DNA of 64,000 bases from Bradyrhizobium sp. WSM471 (GTDB taxonomy: Bacteria > Pseudomonadota > Alphaproteobacteria > Rhizobiales > Xanthobacteraceae): positions 248,001 through 312,000 of the forward strand of contig NZ_CM001442.1 of NCBI RefSeq assembly GCF_000244915.1. Reading direction: 5' to 3'. The position numbers were made by a program, and so were the translations under genes. Positions 1,908 to 12,477 of the stretch are shown piece after piece. Position 1 is the first letter of the stretch. Every line of letters starts with the position of its first letter. Under the pieces are notes generated by a model, which was not told the origin of the DNA, made no database searches, and saw nothing but the letters and a program-made list of their open reading frames with translations.

Positions 1908-2516
1908 TCACACCGCAACTAGCCGCTCGCGCCGCAGGAATGCAAGCAGCGGCAGCAACGGCAAGCCGAGGATGGTGAAGTGGTCACCCTCGATACGCTC
2001 GAACAAATGGATACCCAGACTTTCGAGCTGATAACCGCCGACGCTGGTAGTGACGGCATCGCCGGCGGTGTCGAGATAGGCCGAAAGCTCGGCGTCGGTC
2101 ATCTGCCGCATGGTGAGGCGGGCGACGGAGACGTCCTCGAAGATGATCTCACCGTCGCGTGCTATCGCCACGGCGGAATTCAGCTCATGGCTATGTCCGG
2201 AGAGATCGCGCAGTTGCGCCAGCGCCTCGGCGCGGCCCGCGGGCTTGTTGAAGAGGCGATCGCCAAGCGCCAGCGTTTGATCCGCACCGATGACGGTGCT
2301 TCCGGCGTGATGGGCCGAGACTGCCTTGGCCTTTTCGCGCGCCAGCAGCAGGGCTATCTCGCGCGGGTTCGAAAGTCCGGAGGCGGCCTGGATACCGCGC
2401 TCGTCGATATCAGCCGTGATCGCCTTGAACTCGAGCCCGGCATTGGCCAGCAGCATCTTTCGCGCGTTGCTCTGCGAGGCCAGGATCAACGAAGATTTGC
2501 CGAGCCAGAGACCCAT
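1908..2516 (-). CDS. maf: Maf/HAM1-like nucleoside triphosphate pyrophosphatase
   Basis: Maf proteins hydrolyse nucleoside triphosphates, including modified ones, to monophosphates, a housekeeping role. The 202-aa protein shows the N-terminal [18 protein letters not shown] segment, [16 protein letters not shown] and the [14 protein letters not shown] block. The usual S-x-SPRR signature is replaced here by SQSNARK, so one normally conserved basic position is shifted in character. The family assignment is firm, but the exact nucleotide preference cannot be read. It lies 7 bp downstream of ppsR on the same strand. Confidence 0.9.
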
Positions 2517-2523
2517 CGCGAAA

Positions 2524-3363
2524 CTATTCAGAAGGCCGGTTACGCTGGCGATCGCTGTAGAGTTTCATGATCGCCGCGGCGGTTTCCTCGATCGAGCGCC
2601 GCGTGACGTCGAGCAGTGGCCAATCGTGCTTGGCGCTCAGCTTGCGGGCAAATGCGACCTCCTCGGCAACCGACTGCTTGTCGGTATAGGTGTCGCTGCT
2701 GGAATCGGCGCCCATGGAGAGCAGGCGGTTCGTGCGCACCTGGATCAAGCGTTCCGGCGTCGCATGCAAGCTCACCACCAGCGGTCGCGTCAACGTTTCC
2801 AGTTGCGACGGCACCGGAATGCCGGGAACCAGCGGCACGTTGGCGGTGCGGATGCCCCGGTTGGCAAGGTAGATCGACGTCGGGGTCTTGGAGGTGCGGG
2901 AGACACCGACGAGCACCACATCCGCATCGTCCAGCCCTTCGACATGCTGGCCGTCATCATGGATCATCGTGTAGTTCAACGCGTCGATGCGCTTGAAGTA
3001 TTCGGCATTGAGCACGTGCTGGGCACCGACCCGGCCGGTCGTGGCGGCTCCGAGATACGCCTCGAACAACTGCATCACCGGCCCAATGATCGACAGGCTC
3101 GGAACATTGATCCCCTTGCACTTGTCCTCGAGCCTGGAAACCAGATCCTTCTCGAGCAGCGTGAACAGCACGATTCCCGGTGCTTCCTCGATCTCGTCGA
3201 GCACGCGATCGAGCTGTTTCTGGCTGCGCACCAGCGGATAGACGTGCTCGACCGGTGTCACGTTGGCGTACTGGGCGGCAACGGCGCGGGCGACCGTGAT
3301 CAGCGTCTCACCGGTGGAGTCGGACACGAGGTGCAGATGGAAATAATTGCTCGAGGTCGGCAC
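2524..3363 (-). CDS. ppsR: Pyruvate,phosphate dikinase regulatory protein (DUF299 kinase/pyrophosphorylase)
   Basis: Bifunctional serine/threonine kinase and phosphorylase family acting on pyruvate,phosphate dikinase or PEP synthase. The protein is 279 aa, begins with the family's [12 protein letters not shown] segment and carries a P-loop-like [11 protein letters not shown] at about residues 153-163. It is the first gene of the minus-strand operon and reads away from the gene-free stretch proposed here as oriC. In Caulobacter and Rickettsia this same family borders the origin, from established knowledge of those genomes. Confidence 0.93.
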
Positions 3364-3666
3364 AAAAGCCCTTTGTATGAAACCGGTTTGGTTTGTGGAT
3401 TTCTGTGGACCTTAACCGCTCGGAAAGGGATGTGCGACACCGGGGGCGGGACAAGTGCCAATTTTCTTCACACCACTGCCCTTGAGAACAAGTTCGGCGG
3501 CCTGCCGAAAGGGAAACGGGATTGTGCCGATAACCCTCTTGATAAGCTGCCGACAGAAACGCGCAAGCCTTTGAAGCTGACCGGCTTATCGAAAGCGGCC
3601 AGAGCTATCAGAGGATATGTTGATGGATGTGAACAAGCGCGTGTGAACGGGCGGACGGAAATGTGT

Positions 3667-3718
3667 GAGTCCAATTCACCGTCACATAGACTCAAACCTT
3701 AAGAATCTAAGATTCTTA
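3667..3718. promoter_or_regulatory. Cluster of four GANTC (CcrM-type) methylation sites with an AT-rich inverted repeat
   Basis: GAGTC (3667-3671), GACTC (3689-3693), GAATC (3703-3707) and GATTC (3711-3715) lie within 49 bp, one of each possible GANTC form. The last two are inside a perfect inverted repeat with 8-bp arms, TAAGAATC and GATTCTTA, at 3700-3707 and 3711-3718, with a TAA spacer. GANTC is the target of CcrM, the cell-cycle methyltransferase of alphaproteobacteria. The methylation role is inferred. Confidence 0.6.
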
Positions 3719-3761
3719 TTGGAGAAGGGCGCTACGGACGGATATGTGTGCAGGTAAGACC

Positions 3762-3776
3762 TTAACGAGTTCTTAC
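3762..3776 (+). promoter_or_regulatory. CtrA-like binding site
   Basis: TTAA, seven bases, then TTAC, matching the CtrA consensus TTAA-N7-TTAA at seven of eight fixed positions. It lies 47 bp upstream of hemJ inside the proposed origin, where CtrA sites occur in Caulobacter. A single near-match could be chance. Confidence 0.35.
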
Positions 3777-3822
3777 TATCCCCAGCGTTCCCTTCGGCTG
3801 GGCGGCAATCCGGACCCCAGAC

Positions 3823-4257
3823 ATGTTTGAAGACGTCTATCTCTGGATCAAGGCGTTGCATGTAATCGCCGTCATCTCCTGGATGGCGGGCATGCTCTAT
3901 TTGCCCCGACTGTTCGTTTATCATTGCGAGGCCGAAATCGGCTCGAAGCAGTCGGAAACGTTCAAGATCATGGAACGGCGGCTGTTCAAGGCGATCATCA
4001 ACCCCGCCATGATCGTGACCTGGCTCGCTGGGCTCTATCTCGCTTGGGCTGGACACTGGTTCACTTTCGGCTGGCTGCACGTAAAACTGGCACTGGTCCT
4101 GGCGATGTCGGCGGTCCACGGCTTTTTTTCGCGCTGGTTGAAGGATTTCGCGGCGGACCGGCGCCCCCGGAGCCAGAAATTCTATCGGATTATCAATGAG
4201 GTACCTACTGCCTTGATGATTCTGATCGTCATCATGGTGATCGTGAAGCCGTTCTAG
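3823..4257 (+). CDS. hemJ: Protoporphyrinogen IX oxidase HemJ
   Basis: Integral membrane enzyme that oxidises protoporphyrinogen IX to protoporphyrin IX in haem synthesis. The 144-aa protein has about four hydrophobic segments and the family N-terminus with conserved histidines His13 (ALHVIAVISWMAGM) and His34 (YLPRLFVYH), plus the basic C-terminal half ending in IIMVIVKPF. It is the first rightward gene from the proposed origin. HemE, commonly upstream of it in alphaproteobacteria, is not present here. The 247 bases after it before rho contain no further gene and probably hold the rho leader and promoter. Confidence 0.92.
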   Translation: MFEDVYLWIKALHVIAVISWMAGMLYLPRLFVYHCEAEIGSKQSETFKIMERRLFKAIINPAMIVTWLAGLYLAWAGHWFTFGWLHVKLALVLAMSAVHGFFSRWLKDFAADRRPRSQKFYRIINEVPTALMILIVIMVIVKPF

Positions 4258-4504
4258 GCAGGGGTCGCGAACAATCGCTCAGTGCTTCTGCTTGCGGAGT
4301 GAGAGGCGATTTTCTATATTAGCAATATCCCACCCAACGCAGGCGGATGTGGTCGTGTCTGAGCTTTCCAGAGGCCGGACACCCCATCAGGTTTGAAGCC
4401 TCACCGGCGCTCTCCTTGCCAGACCTGCGGACCTTACCTTTTCGCGTCCGCATTTCAGAGCCTCCTCGCACCCCCCTCCCAGGTTACCCCACAGGACCAC
4501 CCCA

Positions 4505-7439: not shown

Positions 7440-7482
7440 CGCTAGTTCTTCATTGTAGAACTAGCCTTTGTTCCACTTCTTC

Positions 7483-7498
7483 CGTTTCACGTGAAACA
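7483..7498. promoter_or_regulatory. parS centromere site 1
   Basis: CGTTTCACGTGAAACA, containing the perfect 14-bp palindrome GTTTCACGTGAAAC, 15 of 16 to the universal parS consensus. It is the chromosomal ParB loading site. It lies in the mnmE-mnmG gap, about 4 kb from parB. Confidence 0.93.
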
Positions 7499-7516
7499 GG
7501 GCAGGTCGTTCCCAGA

Positions 7517-7532
7517 TGTTTCACGTGAAACG
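7517..7532. promoter_or_regulatory. parS centromere site 2
   Basis: TGTTTCACGTGAAACG, with a perfect 14-bp core and 15 of 16 to consensus, 34 bp from site 1 (about three helical turns). Confidence 0.93.
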
Positions 7533-7746
7533 TCTCCATCACCCAATTTCTCCGGCCTGAAACGTAGCAGCTAAGGAGCGGGTGAGCGGAGAGATCCGGA
7601 TCAATCCTCTCGCGCTGATAGGGGTATGCCGCTGCCATCGCTTCGGAGACCGGCCTGTATCTGGGCATTACGACCTCCGGTCGATGCCCTTATCCTTCGA
7701 GAGCCCCGTTTTCTCTCACTGAAAACCGTAATCTTTCCAAGGGCCA

Positions 7747-7774
7747 TTCTACTGTGCATGGGGTTGTTTTCGCG
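7747..7774 (+). repeat. 28-bp dispersed repeat, copy 1
   Basis: The sequence starting TTCTACTGTGCATGGGGTTG and ending TTTTCGCG is identical over 28 bp to 44973-45000 in the same orientation. Both copies are intergenic. This one lies between parS sites 2 and 3 upstream of mnmG. Its function is unknown. Confidence 0.85.
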
Positions 7775-7800
7775 GAAAATACTTGGGCTTCGCCTTGCCC

Positions 7801-7816
7801 CGTTTCACGTGAAACA
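7801..7816. promoter_or_regulatory. parS centromere site 3
   Basis: CGTTTCACGTGAAACA, with a perfect 14-bp core, 57 bp before the mnmG start. ParB bound here could also affect mnmG transcription. Confidence 0.93.
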
Positions 7817-7872
7817 ACCGCCCCCTCCAGTTTCCACTTCCGGCTTCCCCGCCTCTGAGTTAGAAGTCCGCC

Positions 7873-9753
7873 ATGCGAACAGAGCGAGAGAGCTTCGACG
7901 TCATCGTGATTGGCGGCGGCCACGCCGGCTGTGAGGCCGCGGCCGCGGCCGCTCGGGTGGGTGCAGCGACCGCTCTGGTGACGCACCGATTCTCCACGGT
8001 CGGCGCGATGTCCTGCAATCCCGCCATTGGCGGTCTCGGCAAGGGCCATCTGGTTCGCGAGGTTGACGCGCTCGATGGTCTGATGGGCCGGGTCGGCGAC
8101 GCCGGCGGCATCCAGTTCCGCGTCCTCAATCGTCGTAAGGGCCCGGCGGTGCGCGGTCCGCGGGCCCAGGCCGACCGGAAGCTCTATGCTGCCGCGATGC
8201 AGGCGGCGATCCGGGAGACCGACGGTCTTTCCGTCGTCGAAGGCGAGGCCGACGAGCTGATCGTGGCCGAGGGACGGGTGATCGGCCTGCGGCTGGCAGA
8301 TGGCCGCGAACTTCGGGCAGGGGCTGTCGTCGTCACCACCGGCACCTTCCTCCGCGGCCTGATCCATCTTGGAGAGAAGAACTGGCCGGCCGGCAGGGTT
8401 GGCGAGGCGCCGGCAATAGGCCTTTCGACCTCTTTCGAGCGTGCCGGCTTCACTCTTGGACGGCTCAAGACAGGGACTCCGCCGCGTCTGGACGGCACGA
8501 CGATCGACTGGTCGGCGGTCGAAATGCAGCCGGGGGACGAGCCTCCGGAGCCGTTTTCGGTGATGACCGAGCGGATCACGACGCCGCAGATCCAGTGCGG
8601 GATCACCCGGACCACGCCTGCGACCCACGACGTGATCAGGGCCAATGTCCATCGCTCTCCGATGTACTCCGGCCAGATCAAGAGCTCCGGACCGCGCTAT
8701 TGCCCCTCCATCGAGGACAAGATCGTTCGCTTCGGCGATCGCGACGGTCACCAGATCTTTCTGGAGCCGGAAGGGCTCGACGACAGCACTGTCTATCCCA
8801 ACGGCATCTCGACCTCGCTGCCGGAGGACGTTCAGCTCGCCATCCTCGCAACCATTCCCGGCCTGGAGCGAGTGAAGATGGTCCGGCCGGGCTATGCCAT
8901 CGAATACGACCACGTCGATCCCCGTGAGCTCGATCCGACCCTCCAGACCAAGCGTTTGCGCGGCCTGTTCCTGGCTGGCCAGATCAACGGCACGACCGGA
9001 TACGAGGAAGCTGCCGGCCAGGGCATCGTGGCAGGGCTGAACGCGGCATTGGCTGCGAGCGGTGCCGCACTGACGGTGTTCGACCGGGCGGATGGCTATC
9101 TCGGCGTGATGATCGACGACCTCGTCACCCGAGGCATCAGCGAGCCCTATCGGATGTTCACCTCCAGGGCCGAGTACCGGCTGACATTGCGGGCAGACAA
9201 TGCCGATCAGCGTTTGACCGAGAAGGGCATCGCCCTGGGATGCGTTGGCAGCGCCCGCACCCAGCATCATCGCGCCAAGATGGTCGCCCTGAATGCGGCT
9301 CGATCGCTGTCGAAGTCGCTCACGATCACCCCGAACGAGGCCATCAAGCAGGGTCTCACCCTGAACCGGGACGGCCAGCGGCGGTCGGCCTTCGAGCTGA
9401 TGGCCTATCCCGACATCGGCTGGAGCCAGGTCCGCGCGATCTGGCCGGAGCTCTCGGCCATTGATCCCGTCATTGCCACCCATCTCGAGATCGACGCGAA
9501 GTACGATGTCTATCTGGAGCGCCAGAGCGCCGATGTCGAAGCCTTCAGGCGAGACGAGGGGATGGTGTTGTCGGACGTCGATTACCAGCAGGTCCCCGGT
9601 CTCTCCAATGAGGTGAGAGCCAAGTTGGAGAAGGCGCGGCCGTTCACCGTTGGCCAGGCCGGTCGAATCGACGGCATGACGCCGGCCGCGCTGGGTATCC
9701 TTGCGGCCTATCTCCGCCGCGAAGCGCGGAAGACTTCCAAAGCGATCGCATAG
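7873..9753 (+). CDS. mnmG: tRNA uridine-5-carboxymethylaminomethyl(34) synthesis enzyme MnmG
   Basis: FAD-dependent partner of MnmE in U34 modification. The 626-aa protein shows the Rossmann dinucleotide-binding motif [10 protein letters not shown] at residues 14-23, the family's [28 protein letters not shown] region in the first 70 residues, and the second signature [21 protein letters not shown]. The C-terminal helical MnmE-binding domain ends in [14 protein letters not shown]. Its stop codon (9751-9753) abuts a parS site, and an rsmG frame may begin inside its 3' end. Confidence 0.97.
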
Positions 9754-9768
9754 GTTTCACGTGAAACA
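9753..9768. promoter_or_regulatory. parS centromere site 4
   Basis: GGTTTCACGTGAAACA, with a perfect 14-bp core, starting on the last base of the mnmG stop codon. The GTG used here as the rsmG start lies inside it. Confidence 0.92.
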
Positions 9769-10534
9769 GCGCGGGCCGGCCGGCGGCAGACCGTCATCAG
9801 CAAAACCTTCGGCGGGGGAGGGTGCCGGTGTTCGCTCCGAACCGGCGCCGACCAAGCCGAAGATCGACAAGGCCAGTGCCAACGATCGATCTTTGGACGC
9901 CATCATTGCAGCCGACAAGGTTGCGGCGCTCAAGCTCGCACCCGTTTCATGTGAAACCGAAGCCCGGCTCGATCGCTACATCGCACTGCTGCGGGAGTGG
10001 CAGGCCAAGACCAATCTCGTCGCGCCCTCGACATTGCCGCATCTCTGGACCCGGCACATCGCCGATTCGCTTCAGCTCGTCGCTCTCGCCCCGTCGGCCA
10101 AACGCTGGGCTGATCTCGGCAGCGGCGGCGGCTTCCCCGGCGTAGTGCTGGCTTGCGCTATGGCGGGGACGGCCGGGGCCAGCGTCCACCTGGTCGAGCG
10201 AATCGCCAAGAAAGCGGCCTTCCTGCGCGAAGCCATCCGCATAACTACATCCCCGGGAGTCGTACATCTCGCTGAGATCGGGGATAATGTGGATAGAATC
10301 ACCGGCCCGGTCGATTGCGTCACCGCGCGTGCGCTGGCTCCGCTACATCAACTCATCGGCTTTGCGGAGCCGCTGATGCGCCAAGGCGCAAAGGCGTTAT
10401 TTCTCAAGGGTCAAGATGTAGAGTCTGAATTGACCGAAGCTACTAAATATTGGAATATTCAGCCGCAGCTCCACCAAAGCCGGACAGGCGACGGTTGGAT
10501 CGTTGAGCTGGCTTCCGTCGAGCGGCGCGGGTGA
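9761..10534 (+). CDS. rsmG: 16S rRNA (guanine(527)-N(7))-methyltransferase RsmG
   Basis: Methylates G527 of 16S rRNA with SAM. The SAM-binding motif WADLGSGGGFPGVVLA and the family segment TNLVAPSTLPHLWTRHIADSLQL are clear. The start is uncertain. The frame is open from an ATG at 9701 inside mnmG. The GTG at 9761 (257 aa) lies within a parS site. A TTG at 9893 would give 213 aa, nearest to the usual family length, and leave out a low-complexity Pro/Ala/Lys-rich N-terminus. None has a clear ribosome binding site. A parS-like sequence is embedded at 9943-9958. Confidence 0.92.
   Translation: MKQRGPAGGRPSSAKPSAGEGAGVRSEPAPTKPKIDKASANDRSLDAIIAADKVAALKLAPVSCETEARLDRYIALLREWQAKTNLVAPSTLPHLWTRHIADSLQLVALAPSAKRWADLGSGGGFPGVVLACAMAGTAGASVHLVERIAKKAAFLREAIRITTSPGVVHLAEIGDNVDRITGPVDCVTARALAPLHQLIGFAEPLMRQGAKALFLKGQDVESELTEATKYWNIQPQLHQSRTGDGWIVELASVERRG
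9943..9958. promoter_or_regulatory. Degenerate parS-like site inside rsmG
   Basis: CGTTTCATGTGAAACC differs from the 14-bp parS core by one base (T for the central C). It lies within coding sequence for the residues APVSCETEA. It may be a weaker ParB site or a decayed copy. Confidence 0.6.
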
Positions 10535-10563
10535 GGCGTCAGGGGCCAAGTGGGGAATTTGCG

Positions 10564-11418
10564 ATGAGCGTGATTGACGAACCGCAGCAAGAACAGACCG
10601 CTGCCGTCCCGCAGGGCCATCCGCGCATCCTGGCGCTGGCGAATCAGAAGGGCGGCGTGGGAAAAACAACCACGGCGATCAATCTCGGCACGGCGCTCGC
10701 TGCGATCGGCGAACGCGTCCTGATCGTCGATCTCGATCCGCAGGGCAACGCCTCGACCGGACTCGGCATCGATCGCCGCAACCGCTCCTGCTCGACCTAT
10801 GACGTTCTGGTGGGCGAGGCGAGCCTGCGGGAAGCGGTGGTGTCGACGGCGGTGCCGCGACTGCATATCGCGCCCTCGACCATGGATCTCTCCGGCCTCG
10901 AACTCGAACTCGGCACCACGCCCGGTCGTGCGTACAAGTTGCGTGACGCGATCAGCGCGCTCAACAACAACGTCTCGCCCGACGCCGATTACACTTACGT
11001 GCTGATCGACTGTCCGCCCTCGCTCAATCTGATCACCGTGAACGCGATGGCGGCTTCCGACGCGATCCTGGTGCCGCTGCAGTGCGAGTTCTTCGCGCTC
11101 GAAGGTCTGTCGCAATTGCTGCAAACGGTGGAGCAGGTGCGCTCGACGCTCAATCCGAACCTGTCGATCCACGGCATCGTGCTGACCATGTTCGACTCGC
11201 GCAACAATCTCTCGAACCAGGTCGTTGCCGACGTTCGGCAGTTCATGGGCGAGAAGGTCTACAAGACCATGATCCCGCGCAACGTGCGCATCTCGGAGGC
11301 GCCGTCCTACGGCAAGCCGGTGCTGGTCTACGATCTCAAATGCGTCGGCAGCGAAGCTTATCTGCGGCTCGCCACCGAAGTGATCCAGCGCGAACGCGAG
11401 CTGCGGACGACGCATTGA
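10564..11418 (+). CDS. parA: Chromosome partitioning ATPase ParA
   Basis: Walker-type ATPase that drives segregation of ParB-parS complexes along the nucleoid. The deviant Walker A KGGVGKTT is at residues 29-36, preceded by ILALANQ, with LIVDLDPQGNAST and the Walker B segment LIDCPPSLNLITVNA. The chosen ATG (284 aa, MSVIDEPQQEQ) is preceded by GGGGAATTTGCG. An upstream ATG at 10531 would overlap rsmG by 4 bp. A 117-bp palindromic element separates it from parB. Confidence 0.97.
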   Translation: MSVIDEPQQEQTAAVPQGHPRILALANQKGGVGKTTTAINLGTALAAIGERVLIVDLDPQGNASTGLGIDRRNRSCSTYDVLVGEASLREAVVSTAVPRLHIAPSTMDLSGLELELGTTPGRAYKLRDAISALNNNVSPDADYTYVLIDCPPSLNLITVNAMAASDAILVPLQCEFFALEGLSQLLQTVEQVRSTLNPNLSIHGIVLTMFDSRNNLSNQVVADVRQFMGEKVYKTMIPRNVRISEAPSYGKPVLVYDLKCVGSEAYLRLATEVIQRERELRTTH

Positions 11419-11424
11419 AGTTGC

Positions 11425-11541
11425 CGTAGGGTGGGTTAGCCGAAGGCGTAACCCACCACGGTCGATCTTCGCGGAAACAGAAGAGGTGGGTTACGCCGAG
11501 CAGATACGCTTCGCACATCTGCAGGGCTAACCCACCCTACG
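11425..11541. repeat. Palindromic repeat element, family A, between parA and parB
   Basis: 117 bp bounded by perfect 16-bp inverted repeats, CGTAGGGTGGGTTAGC and GCTAACCCACCCTACG. Internal copies of the GGGTTA/TAACCC motif allow further pairing. A 90-bp relative with identical ends lies at 24498-24587. It would form a strong hairpin in the parA-parB transcript. Confidence 0.88.
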
Positions 11542-11592
11542 ATTCGAAATTCAGGTTTGGAGTGCTGCACGTTGAATCCAAGGGAGCTGGCG

Positions 11593-12477
11593 ATGGCCGA
11601 CGAAGCGCGTTCGCGATTGGGCCGGGGTCTTGCGAGTCTGATCGGTGACGTCGGCGGCGAGGCTCAGCATGTCGATCGTCCGCGCGCGCAACGCAAGGTG
11701 CCGATCGAGTTCATCAAGCCCAATCCGCGCAACCCGCGCCGGACCTTTTCGGAAAGCGAGCTCAGGGAGCTCAGCGATTCCATCAGGCAGCACGGCGTGA
11801 TCCAGCCGATCGTGGTGCGACCGGTGAAGGGCGCGCAAGACCGCTTCGAGATCATCGCCGGCGAGCGGCGCTGGCGCGCGTCGCAAATGGCCGGCCTGCA
11901 CGAAGTGCCGATCGTCCCCGTCGACATCAGCGACAGCGATGCGCTGGAGTTCGCGATCGTCGAGAACGTGCAGCGCGAAGACCTCAACCCCATGGAAGAG
12001 GCGCTCGGCTATCACGCGCTCGCCAACGAGTTCAAACGCAGCCAGGACGACATCGCCAAAGTCGTCGGCAAGAGCCGCAGCCACATCGCCAATATGATGC
12101 GGCTGACGAAGCTTCCCTCTGAGGTGCAAGCCTTGATCACGAGCGGCGAGCTGACCGCCGGTCACGCCCGCGCGCTGATCGGCGTGCCTGATCCGATCGC
12201 GGCTGCCAAGCGCATCGTCGAAGAAGGCCTCAACGTCCGCCAGACCGAGGCGCTGGCGCATGAAGAGGGCGTGCCGGAGCGCAAGCCGCAGAAGGCGCGC
12301 ACGGGGGCGAAGGAAAAGGACCCTGACACGGTCGACCTGGAGAAGCGCGTTAGCGACGCGCTCGGGCTCAAGGTCACGGTGAGCCACCGCGATCCCGGCG
12401 GCTCGGTCCAGATCAACTACCGCAACCTCGATCAGCTCGACGAGGTGATGCGGCGGCTGGCGAAGGGCGCGATCTAG
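11593..12477 (+). CDS. parB: Chromosome partitioning protein ParB
   Basis: CTP-binding DNA clamp that loads at parS and spreads. The 294-aa protein has an N-terminal ParA-stimulating peptide (RLGRGLASLIGD, residues 8-19), the Srx-like domain with GERRWRA at 90-96 and ENVQREDLNP at 124-133, a helix-turn-helix around 150-171 (SQDDIAKVVGKSRSHIANMM), and a C-terminal dimerisation region with NLDQLDEVMRRL. The ATG was chosen because GGGAG precedes it. A longer frame from 11557 would add 12 residues without family support. Confidence 0.97.
   Translation: MADEARSRLGRGLASLIGDVGGEAQHVDRPRAQRKVPIEFIKPNPRNPRRTFSESELRELSDSIRQHGVIQPIVVRPVKGAQDRFEIIAGERRWRASQMAGLHEVPIVPVDISDSDALEFAIVENVQREDLNPMEEALGYHALANEFKRSQDDIAKVVGKSRSHIANMMRLTKLPSEVQALITSGELTAGHARALIGVPDPIAAAKRIVEEGLNVRQTEALAHEEGVPERKPQKARTGAKEKDPDTVDLEKRVSDALGLKVTVSHRDPGGSVQINYRNLDQLDEVMRRLAKGAI

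Follow-up and report, generated by a model that had tools for sequence, protein, structure and literature searches.

Where does replication begin on a Bradyrhizobium-type chromosome, given that hemE, which adjoins the experimentally identified Caulobacter origin at the equivalent gap (PMC1914354), lies elsewhere? We addressed this question in a 64,000-nucleotide stretch of DNA (the window), which covers genome positions 248,001-312,000 of a single-contig chromosome of 7,784,016 bp. A first-pass annotation had proposed a probable chromosomal origin between the DUF299 gene and hemJ. Our analysis supports this proposal through the skew interval, an order-wide enrichment of DnaA boxes at the same gap, and conservation of the boxes. 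On this sequence-based evidence, the 459-bp DUF299-hemJ gap is very probably the chromosomal replication origin.

Gene content and conservation of the DUF299-hemJ gap

The two genes diverge from a gap of 459 bases, just as first annotated, with the 5' end of DUF299 and the start of hemJ at its edges (Table 1). Beyond hemJ the order is rho, mnmE, mnmG, rsmG, parA and parB, all assigned by Pfam except rsmG, which we take to be that gene from its sequence and place. Bradyrhizobium proteins match the DUF299 protein at up to 99% identity. G+C content is 52% in the gap versus 64% across the window. The dnaA gene lies at genome position 1,429 bp, 250 kb to the left of the gap, and its product contains GGRDHTTV, presumably the standard DnaA signature. 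The sole hemE match in the genome is at 2,446,617-2,447,630, remote from the gap. A 458-aa open frame (window 2326-3702, + strand) runs antisense to DUF299 and extends into the gap; we take it to be a spurious high-G+C frame.

Table 1. Features of the candidate origin and its neighborhood (window coordinates; fractions refer to the 81 Bradyrhizobium-type loci)
Feature	Position	Strand	Evidence or remark
Candidate oriC, entire divergent intergenic region DUF299/hemJ	3364..3822		Gene calls, conservation, box enrichment, skew
DUF299 / COG1806 / PpsR (PF03618), flanking gene	2524..3363	- (5' end 3363)	Pfam
hemJ (UPF0093, PF03653), in the usual place of hemE	3823..4257	+	Pfam
DnaA-like box AAATCCACA	3394..3402	-	TCCACA core intact; identical in 72/81; GGATTCACA in 7
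DnaA-like box AGGTCCACA	3404..3412	-	Identical in 27/81; TCCACA core in 81/81
DnaA box TTCTTCACA	3464..3472	+	One mismatch from TTATNCACA; 73/81; TTGTTCACA in 7
DnaA box TTGTTCACA	3628..3636	-	One mismatch from TTATNCACA; 76/81
Four GANTC (CcrM-type) sites	3667, 3689, 3703, 3711 (3667..3715)		Kept in 80, 80, 74 and 64 of 81
AT-richest segment, likely unwinding element	3681..3720		70% A+T
Perfect dyad TAAGAATCT-A-AGATTCTTA	3700..3718		Encloses two GANTC sites
CtrA-like TTAACGAGTTCTTAC	3762..3776		One mismatch, clade-limited; weak evidence
Single TCCCCA, Caulobacter W-box consensus	3779..3784	+	Possibly chance
mnmE-mnmG (gidA) gap, three parS sites	7440..7872		Ori-Finder-type gidA flank; not the origin in our reading
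Fourth parS	9753..9768		Far side of gidA
parA (10531-11418), parB (11557-12477)	10531..12477	+	Pfam

A scan of genome contigs returned 135 stretches that encode a DUF299 relative, and the best 80 were used, 78 of them titled Bradyrhizobium and the others 'Bradyrhizobiaceae bacterium' and 'Frankia sp. RB7'. Among these best 80 of 135, hemJ faces DUF299 in every one, the gap measures 437-475 bp in 72 and 500-512 bp in eight, and its identity to the gap of the window ranges from 0.47 to 0.96. Together with the window locus they make up the 81 Bradyrhizobium-type loci. When the window was compared with seven deep-branch sequences (mean identity 0.50), eight blocks of at least 7 bp were identical throughout: CTGTGGA, TCTTCACA, ATAAGCTG, ATGTTGA, GGATGTGAACAA, AATTCAC, AGACTCAAACCTTA and CGGATATGT. 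Three of these correspond to DnaA boxes and another, with a GANTC, falls in the AT-rich segment; the remaining four (3542-3549, 3617-3623, 3673-3679 and 3739-3747) match no known box.

DnaA boxes are enriched in the gap across relatives

Boxes were counted against the reference TTATNCACA with up to one mismatch allowed, and the expectation was taken from a Markov model. No perfect TTATNCACA box is present in the gap, which holds box-like 9-mers at 3464 (+), 3628 (-), 3394 (-) and 3404 (-). The earlier annotation had listed such 9-mers, none of them perfect, and had judged them weak alone, leaning on context; both points held. Clusters of at least two one-mismatch boxes number 11 in the 1.25 Mb scanned (16% of the genome, for DnaA boxes only), with the gap among them, and the excess in this single genome is barely above chance. 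Relatives, on the other hand, are clearly enriched. We counted 166 boxes versus 15.4 expected in the gaps of the 81 Bradyrhizobium-type loci, 29 versus 4.2 in 20 loci of the family (one of which is Bradyrhizobium), 41 versus 4.6 in 20 loci of 15 other families, and 60 versus 7.6 in 20 loci of 20 further families. Pooled over the 40 other-family loci the count is 101 versus 12, and the excess across relatives amounts to 7-11 times expectation. One caveat here is that the sequences in each set are kin, and hence these counts are not independent. The 60 outside loci were chosen for long contigs and different families. Twenty were drawn from 61 family genomes, and the other 40 from the 105 order genomes (120 screened) that gave a DUF299 match. 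In eight of the 60 (L154, L158, L163, L164, L183, L185, L268 and L270), the gap has no one-mismatch box. The strict count was used alongside a PWM, which grew loose on iteration (146 sites in 20 sequences).

Neighboring gaps served as controls. Box counts were 3 versus 11.8 (n = 77), 2 versus 1.4 (17) and 0 versus 0.7 (14) for mnmE-mnmG; 4 versus 8.2 (81), 6 versus 1.4 (19), 0 versus 2.6 (19) and 2 versus 2.9 (20) for hemJ-rho; and 4 versus 14.0 (81), 0 versus 1.0 (9) and 2 versus 0.6 (8) for rho-mnmE. Ten of 11 control counts were not raised, the exception being hemJ-rho in the family set; the last rho-mnmE value (2 versus 0.6, sd 0.9) is within noise.

The individual boxes are also among the more conserved parts of the gap. 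When gap 9-mers were ranked by conservation, two boxes fell in the top 2% and the other two in the top 7% and 19%; for the 3628 box, just 0.9% of gap 9-mers are equally conserved. The CTGTGGA block of the 3404 box is identical down to the deepest Bradyrhizobium branch. The box TTCTTCACA recurs at offset 86 in eight of the 20 family loci and at offset 100 in one, and the variant AGNTCCACA is found in 74 of the 81 Bradyrhizobium-type loci.

Nucleotide skew switches near the gap

Skew was computed on stretches rather than on the whole genome, the main one being a contiguous 509 kb that contains both dnaA and the candidate. Among 20-kb samples (40 plus the window), G exceeds C in 22 of 23 on one arm (0.19 to 4.28 Mb); on the other arm (4.48 Mb round to 1 bp), 13 of 18 have C in excess and five do not. 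In the 509 kb, the cumulative GC minimum, which had been named as the check on the proposed origin, falls at 235,177, 16 kb to the left of the gap, and the keto minimum at 234,093. We obtained intervals from a two-mean changepoint with block bootstrap. The changepoint is at 234 kb, and its 95% interval is 116-348 kb by GC skew and 62-364 kb by keto skew; the gap is inside both, and the proposal thus came through this check. Placing the changepoint at the candidate costs 3.8 (GC) and 5.5 (keto) residual variances.

Four relatives were treated in the same way, and in each of them, as in this genome, the gap lies inside both the GC and the keto bootstrap intervals. In G022, which belongs to the same genus, the GC minimum is at 950.6 kb (interval 823-1,103 kb) and the keto minimum at 939.6 kb, compared to 957.3 kb for the candidate, a distance of 7-18 kb. 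The other three represent other genera of the family, in which the intervals are tighter, and one of them (G038) keeps hemE. Their GC changepoints, at 3,628 kb (3,616-3,646) in G058, 1,584 kb (1,580-1,588) in G057 and 1,921 kb (1,899-1,949) in G038, are close to the respective gaps at 3,629.6, 1,586.0 and 1,923.7 kb, and their keto changepoints are 0.4, 8 and 9 kb from the gap.

We also followed GGGCAGGG, the 8-mer with the strongest skew in the arm samples, which totals 262 forward and 225 reverse sites genome-wide. Right of the candidate to 449 kb, seven of nine sites have right-arm polarity. Near the gap, polarity was mixed in G022 (8/11 as expected on the left, 5/9 on the right) and better in G058 (6/6 and 3/4). 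The looser GGGNAGGG gave 13 to 9 right of the gap. A trained k-mer skew agreed broadly with GC skew on the position and was no more precise, and its changepoint shifted to 164 kb at k = 7 in this genome and to 851 kb at k = 8 in G022. The orientation of rRNA genes was uninformative for placing the origin. A search with the E. coli-like dif core found no match at up to three mismatches.

The alternative that fares best would put the origin 250 kb to the left, upstream of dnaA (genome positions about 50-360), and would make the gap a regulatory region. The ~1-kb stretch before dnaA (non-coding by alignment alone) has four one-mismatch boxes, the best cluster in 1.25 Mb. At genome positions 54-360 (L085), a pair at about 300 and 355 is kept in nine of 17 Bradyrhizobium genomes, and a perfect TTATCCACA is found upstream of dnaA in seven of 17. 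A box array is, however, expected there anyway for self-regulation of dnaA, and skew argues against initiation at that site: in this genome dnaA is outside the 95% interval, and a changepoint at dnaA costs 22.6 (GC) and 19.5 (keto) residual variances. Of the eight GGGCAGGG sites that lie between dnaA and the gap, six have left-arm polarity, although GGGNAGGG is even there (12 to 12) and hence uninformative. Only this genome tests dnaA directly, because the dnaA genes of G022, G058, G057 and G038, at 738, 3,418, 1,342 and 1,626 kb, are outside the stretches analyzed. Nevertheless, in G058, G057 and G038 left-arm skew persists on the dnaA side right up to the gap and switches there sharply, in stretches that stop short of dnaA, 211-297 kb away. 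We consider an origin at dnaA very unlikely.

It is slightly less likely again that the gap is only the divergent promoter region of DUF299 and hemJ, with an unrecognised origin within about 20 kb, for example near 235 kb, to the left of the window. This would account for the minima at 235 kb here and at 939-951 kb in G022 (versus 957 kb). These offsets, however, are within the noise of the skew, the GC switch is no more than 3 kb from the gap in G057, G058 and G038, and box enrichment tracks the gap whether the neighbor is hemJ or hemE.

parS sites probably explain the gidA-side motif

Perfect GTTTCACGTGAAAC core parS sites occur at 7484, 7518, 7802 and 9754, and a weaker parS at 9943. The first four are the genome's only matches to TGTTTCACGTGAAACA with no more than one mismatch, and they lie 3.7-5.9 kb to the right of the gap. 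The first-pass annotation had put a parS cluster and parAB about 4-9 kb away, and this is where they are, with parS from 7484 and the starts of parA and parB as tabulated. Marker-frequency data for Hyphomonas put the peak near hemE, with parAB some 7 kb off, and the palindrome TGTTTCACGTGAAACA was the parS sequence tested by gel shift with Hyphomonas ParB (PMC6650430).

In 2008, Ori-Finder predicted that Bradyrhizobiaceae origins adjoin gidA and took TGTTTCACG for a DnaA box specific to the family (PMC2275245). Comparison of the motifs indicates that these 'DnaA boxes' are parS half-sites, i.e. part of a ParB site, and Ori-Finder would have chosen the gidA flank because half-sites were taken for boxes. 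Least likely of all, then, is an origin in that flank, such as the mnmE-mnmG gap: skew cannot separate it from the DUF299-hemJ gap 4 kb away (its changepoint loss is 4.2 for GC and 6.9 for keto), but the palindrome is bound by ParB, parAB adjoins, and the control counts above show no enrichment of one-mismatch DnaA boxes in it.

The AT-rich segment of the gap carries a GANTC cluster

The AT-richest segment of the gap, a likely unwinding element, is matched in A+T by 0.02% of 40-bp windows in the 64 kb, and in the 80 relatives (best 80 of 135) the AT-maximum falls at gap offset 300-339. The four GANTC sites first noted in the gap were confirmed, at 3667, 3689, 3703 and 3711, and this is the only place in the 64-kb window, among 140 sites, where four lie within 49 bp. 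The 80 bp surrounding the AT-maximum contain 306 GANTC sites versus a Markov expectation of 44.5 in the 81 Bradyrhizobium-type loci, 53 versus 9.3 in the 20 family loci, and 25 versus 7.8 and 18 versus 6.0 in the two sets of 20 others. At least two sites are present there in 81/81 Bradyrhizobium-type and 20/20 family loci, compared to 7/20 and 6/20 in the other sets. The GANTC cluster is strong evidence, and it is the least expected feature of the gap. A 16-bp direct repeat, CGGACGGAWATGTGTG (94% identical), flanks the AT-rich segment at 3652-3667 and 3735-3750.

The presence of at least two GANTC sites around the AT-maximum in every Bradyrhizobium-type and family locus examined raises a tentative possibility. 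Within this family, Bradyrhizobium included, the oriC unwinding segment could itself be a CcrM target, whose methylation, full before and half after fork passage, would directly gate opening. Since exact CtrA sites are absent from the 81 Bradyrhizobium-type loci, such gating might stand in for the CtrA brake of Caulobacter. We regard this scenario as doubtful but directly testable, which makes CcrM control of origin opening accessible to experiment.

CtrA and IHF motifs in the gap

The TTAA-N7-TTAC reported by the first-pass annotation as CtrA-like is present at 3762; as origin evidence it carries little weight. It is a one-mismatch site retained in most of one clade and missing in others, and exact TTAA-N7-TTAA is found in none of the gaps of the 81 Bradyrhizobium-type loci. 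We therefore rejected it as main evidence. One-mismatch CtrA sites number 66, in 65 of the 81 loci, versus 7.9 expected. Elsewhere, 16 of the 40 other-family loci (L166, L169, L172, L174, L176, L178-L182, L263, L265, L270 and L277-L279) carry exact TTAA-N7-TTAA in this gap, which disagrees with what a review states.

For IHF, the exact motif WATCAANNNNTTR gave 1 match in the gap versus 1.4 expected. Allowing one mismatch, we counted 40 versus 20.8 in the gap and 97 versus 21.1 in the rho-mnmE control gap; the IHF signal in the gap is thus not above control gaps.

Comparison with known and predicted origins

An oriC of the hemE/COG1806 type is recognized by hemE or COG1806 nearby, DnaA boxes, CtrA sites (TTAA-N7-TTAA), IHF sites, A+T above that of the genome, and the absence of a rival gap of notable size with equally many binding sites (PMC1914354). 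COG1806/DUF299 adjoins the gap, which suffices for position without hemE, and A+T is 48% versus 36% in the window, as that origin type calls for. With respect to a rival gap, the region upstream of dnaA scores higher for DnaA boxes in the 16% of the genome scanned. The gap resembles the Caulobacter Cori and the Rickettsia type in lying beside a divergent COG1806/DUF299, in exceeding 400 bp, in being A+T-richer than its surroundings, and in having several weak DnaA boxes and parABS within 10 kb. Unlike Cori, it has lost hemE as a neighbor and is faced by hemJ, has no exact CtrA site or IHF signal above controls, lacks the Caulobacter G-box TGATCCACA, and contains one TCCCCA only, the W-box consensus of Caulobacter (PMC4285127). 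The GANTC cluster in the AT-rich segment is a feature of this gap. The CcnA RNA is known from the Caulobacter origin (PMC8959179); an Rfam search of 2500-4300 found no RNA here. One miRNA match was discarded, its score being far under the cutoff.

The position itself is not new. The 2011 USDA6 genome paper placed the B. japonicum USDA6/USDA110 origin, from skew and conservation, between bll0636 and blr0637, both listed as 'conserved hypothetical' (PMC3927601). As in our case, that gap is conserved (82% over 391 bp) and near a GC-skew shift; the section on this prediction gives position and conservation, without boxes or an unwinding segment (PMC3927601). Judging by the gene names, which point to a divergent pair, and by the matching identity, bll0636/blr0637 are probably DUF299 and hemJ, and the predicted gap is probably orthologous to this one. 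The Lb8 genome paper, relying on a GC-skew shift and Ori-Finder, puts a Bradyrhizobium origin at 17 kb (PMC7020250). Ori-Finder's Bradyrhizobiaceae oriC shares the neighborhood and skew switch with ours and differs in using the gidA flank (PMC2275245). Beyond the published placements that we found, new elements here are the box map, the use of skew to test the dnaA side, a reinterpretation of the motif beside gidA, and the AT segment rich in GANTC. Bradyrhizobium, a large genus of legume symbionts, thereby gains a candidate origin mapped to the base.

The location, conservation, box enrichment, AT-rich segment and skew switch of the gap are computational observations. As for mechanism, DnaA would bind TTGTTCACA (3628) and TTCTTCACA (3464) first and then extend to the tandem boxes at 3394/3404, which are weaker. 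Opening of the AT-rich segment (3681-3720) would let the helicase load there, forks would depart in both directions, and the parS/parAB cluster 4-9 kb away would then segregate the new origins. With four GANTC sites within or beside the segment that opens, initiation probably responds to CcrM methylation.

Gene order in other families

The gene beside the gap is hemE in 39 of 40 other-family loci, the remaining one (L271) having hemJ; among the 20 family loci it is hemJ in 13 and hemE in six, and L165, whose boxes were counted as far as rho, has neither. From this distribution we infer that hemE left the locus within the family, while the gap and its boxes stayed with DUF299. This origin type would then survive loss of its hemE neighbor. 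Fifteen of the 120 order genomes (families f5, f37, f43 and others) gave no DUF299 match at E 0.001, and in these the origin flank may have been lost or have diverged. DUF299 matches with one in-frame stop codon were seen in G087, G123, G176, G085, G121 and G070 (families f28, f26 and f11). Finally, G186 has two equal-scoring full dnaA-domain matches (C16:436620 and 1023091), a possible duplication or assembly artefact.
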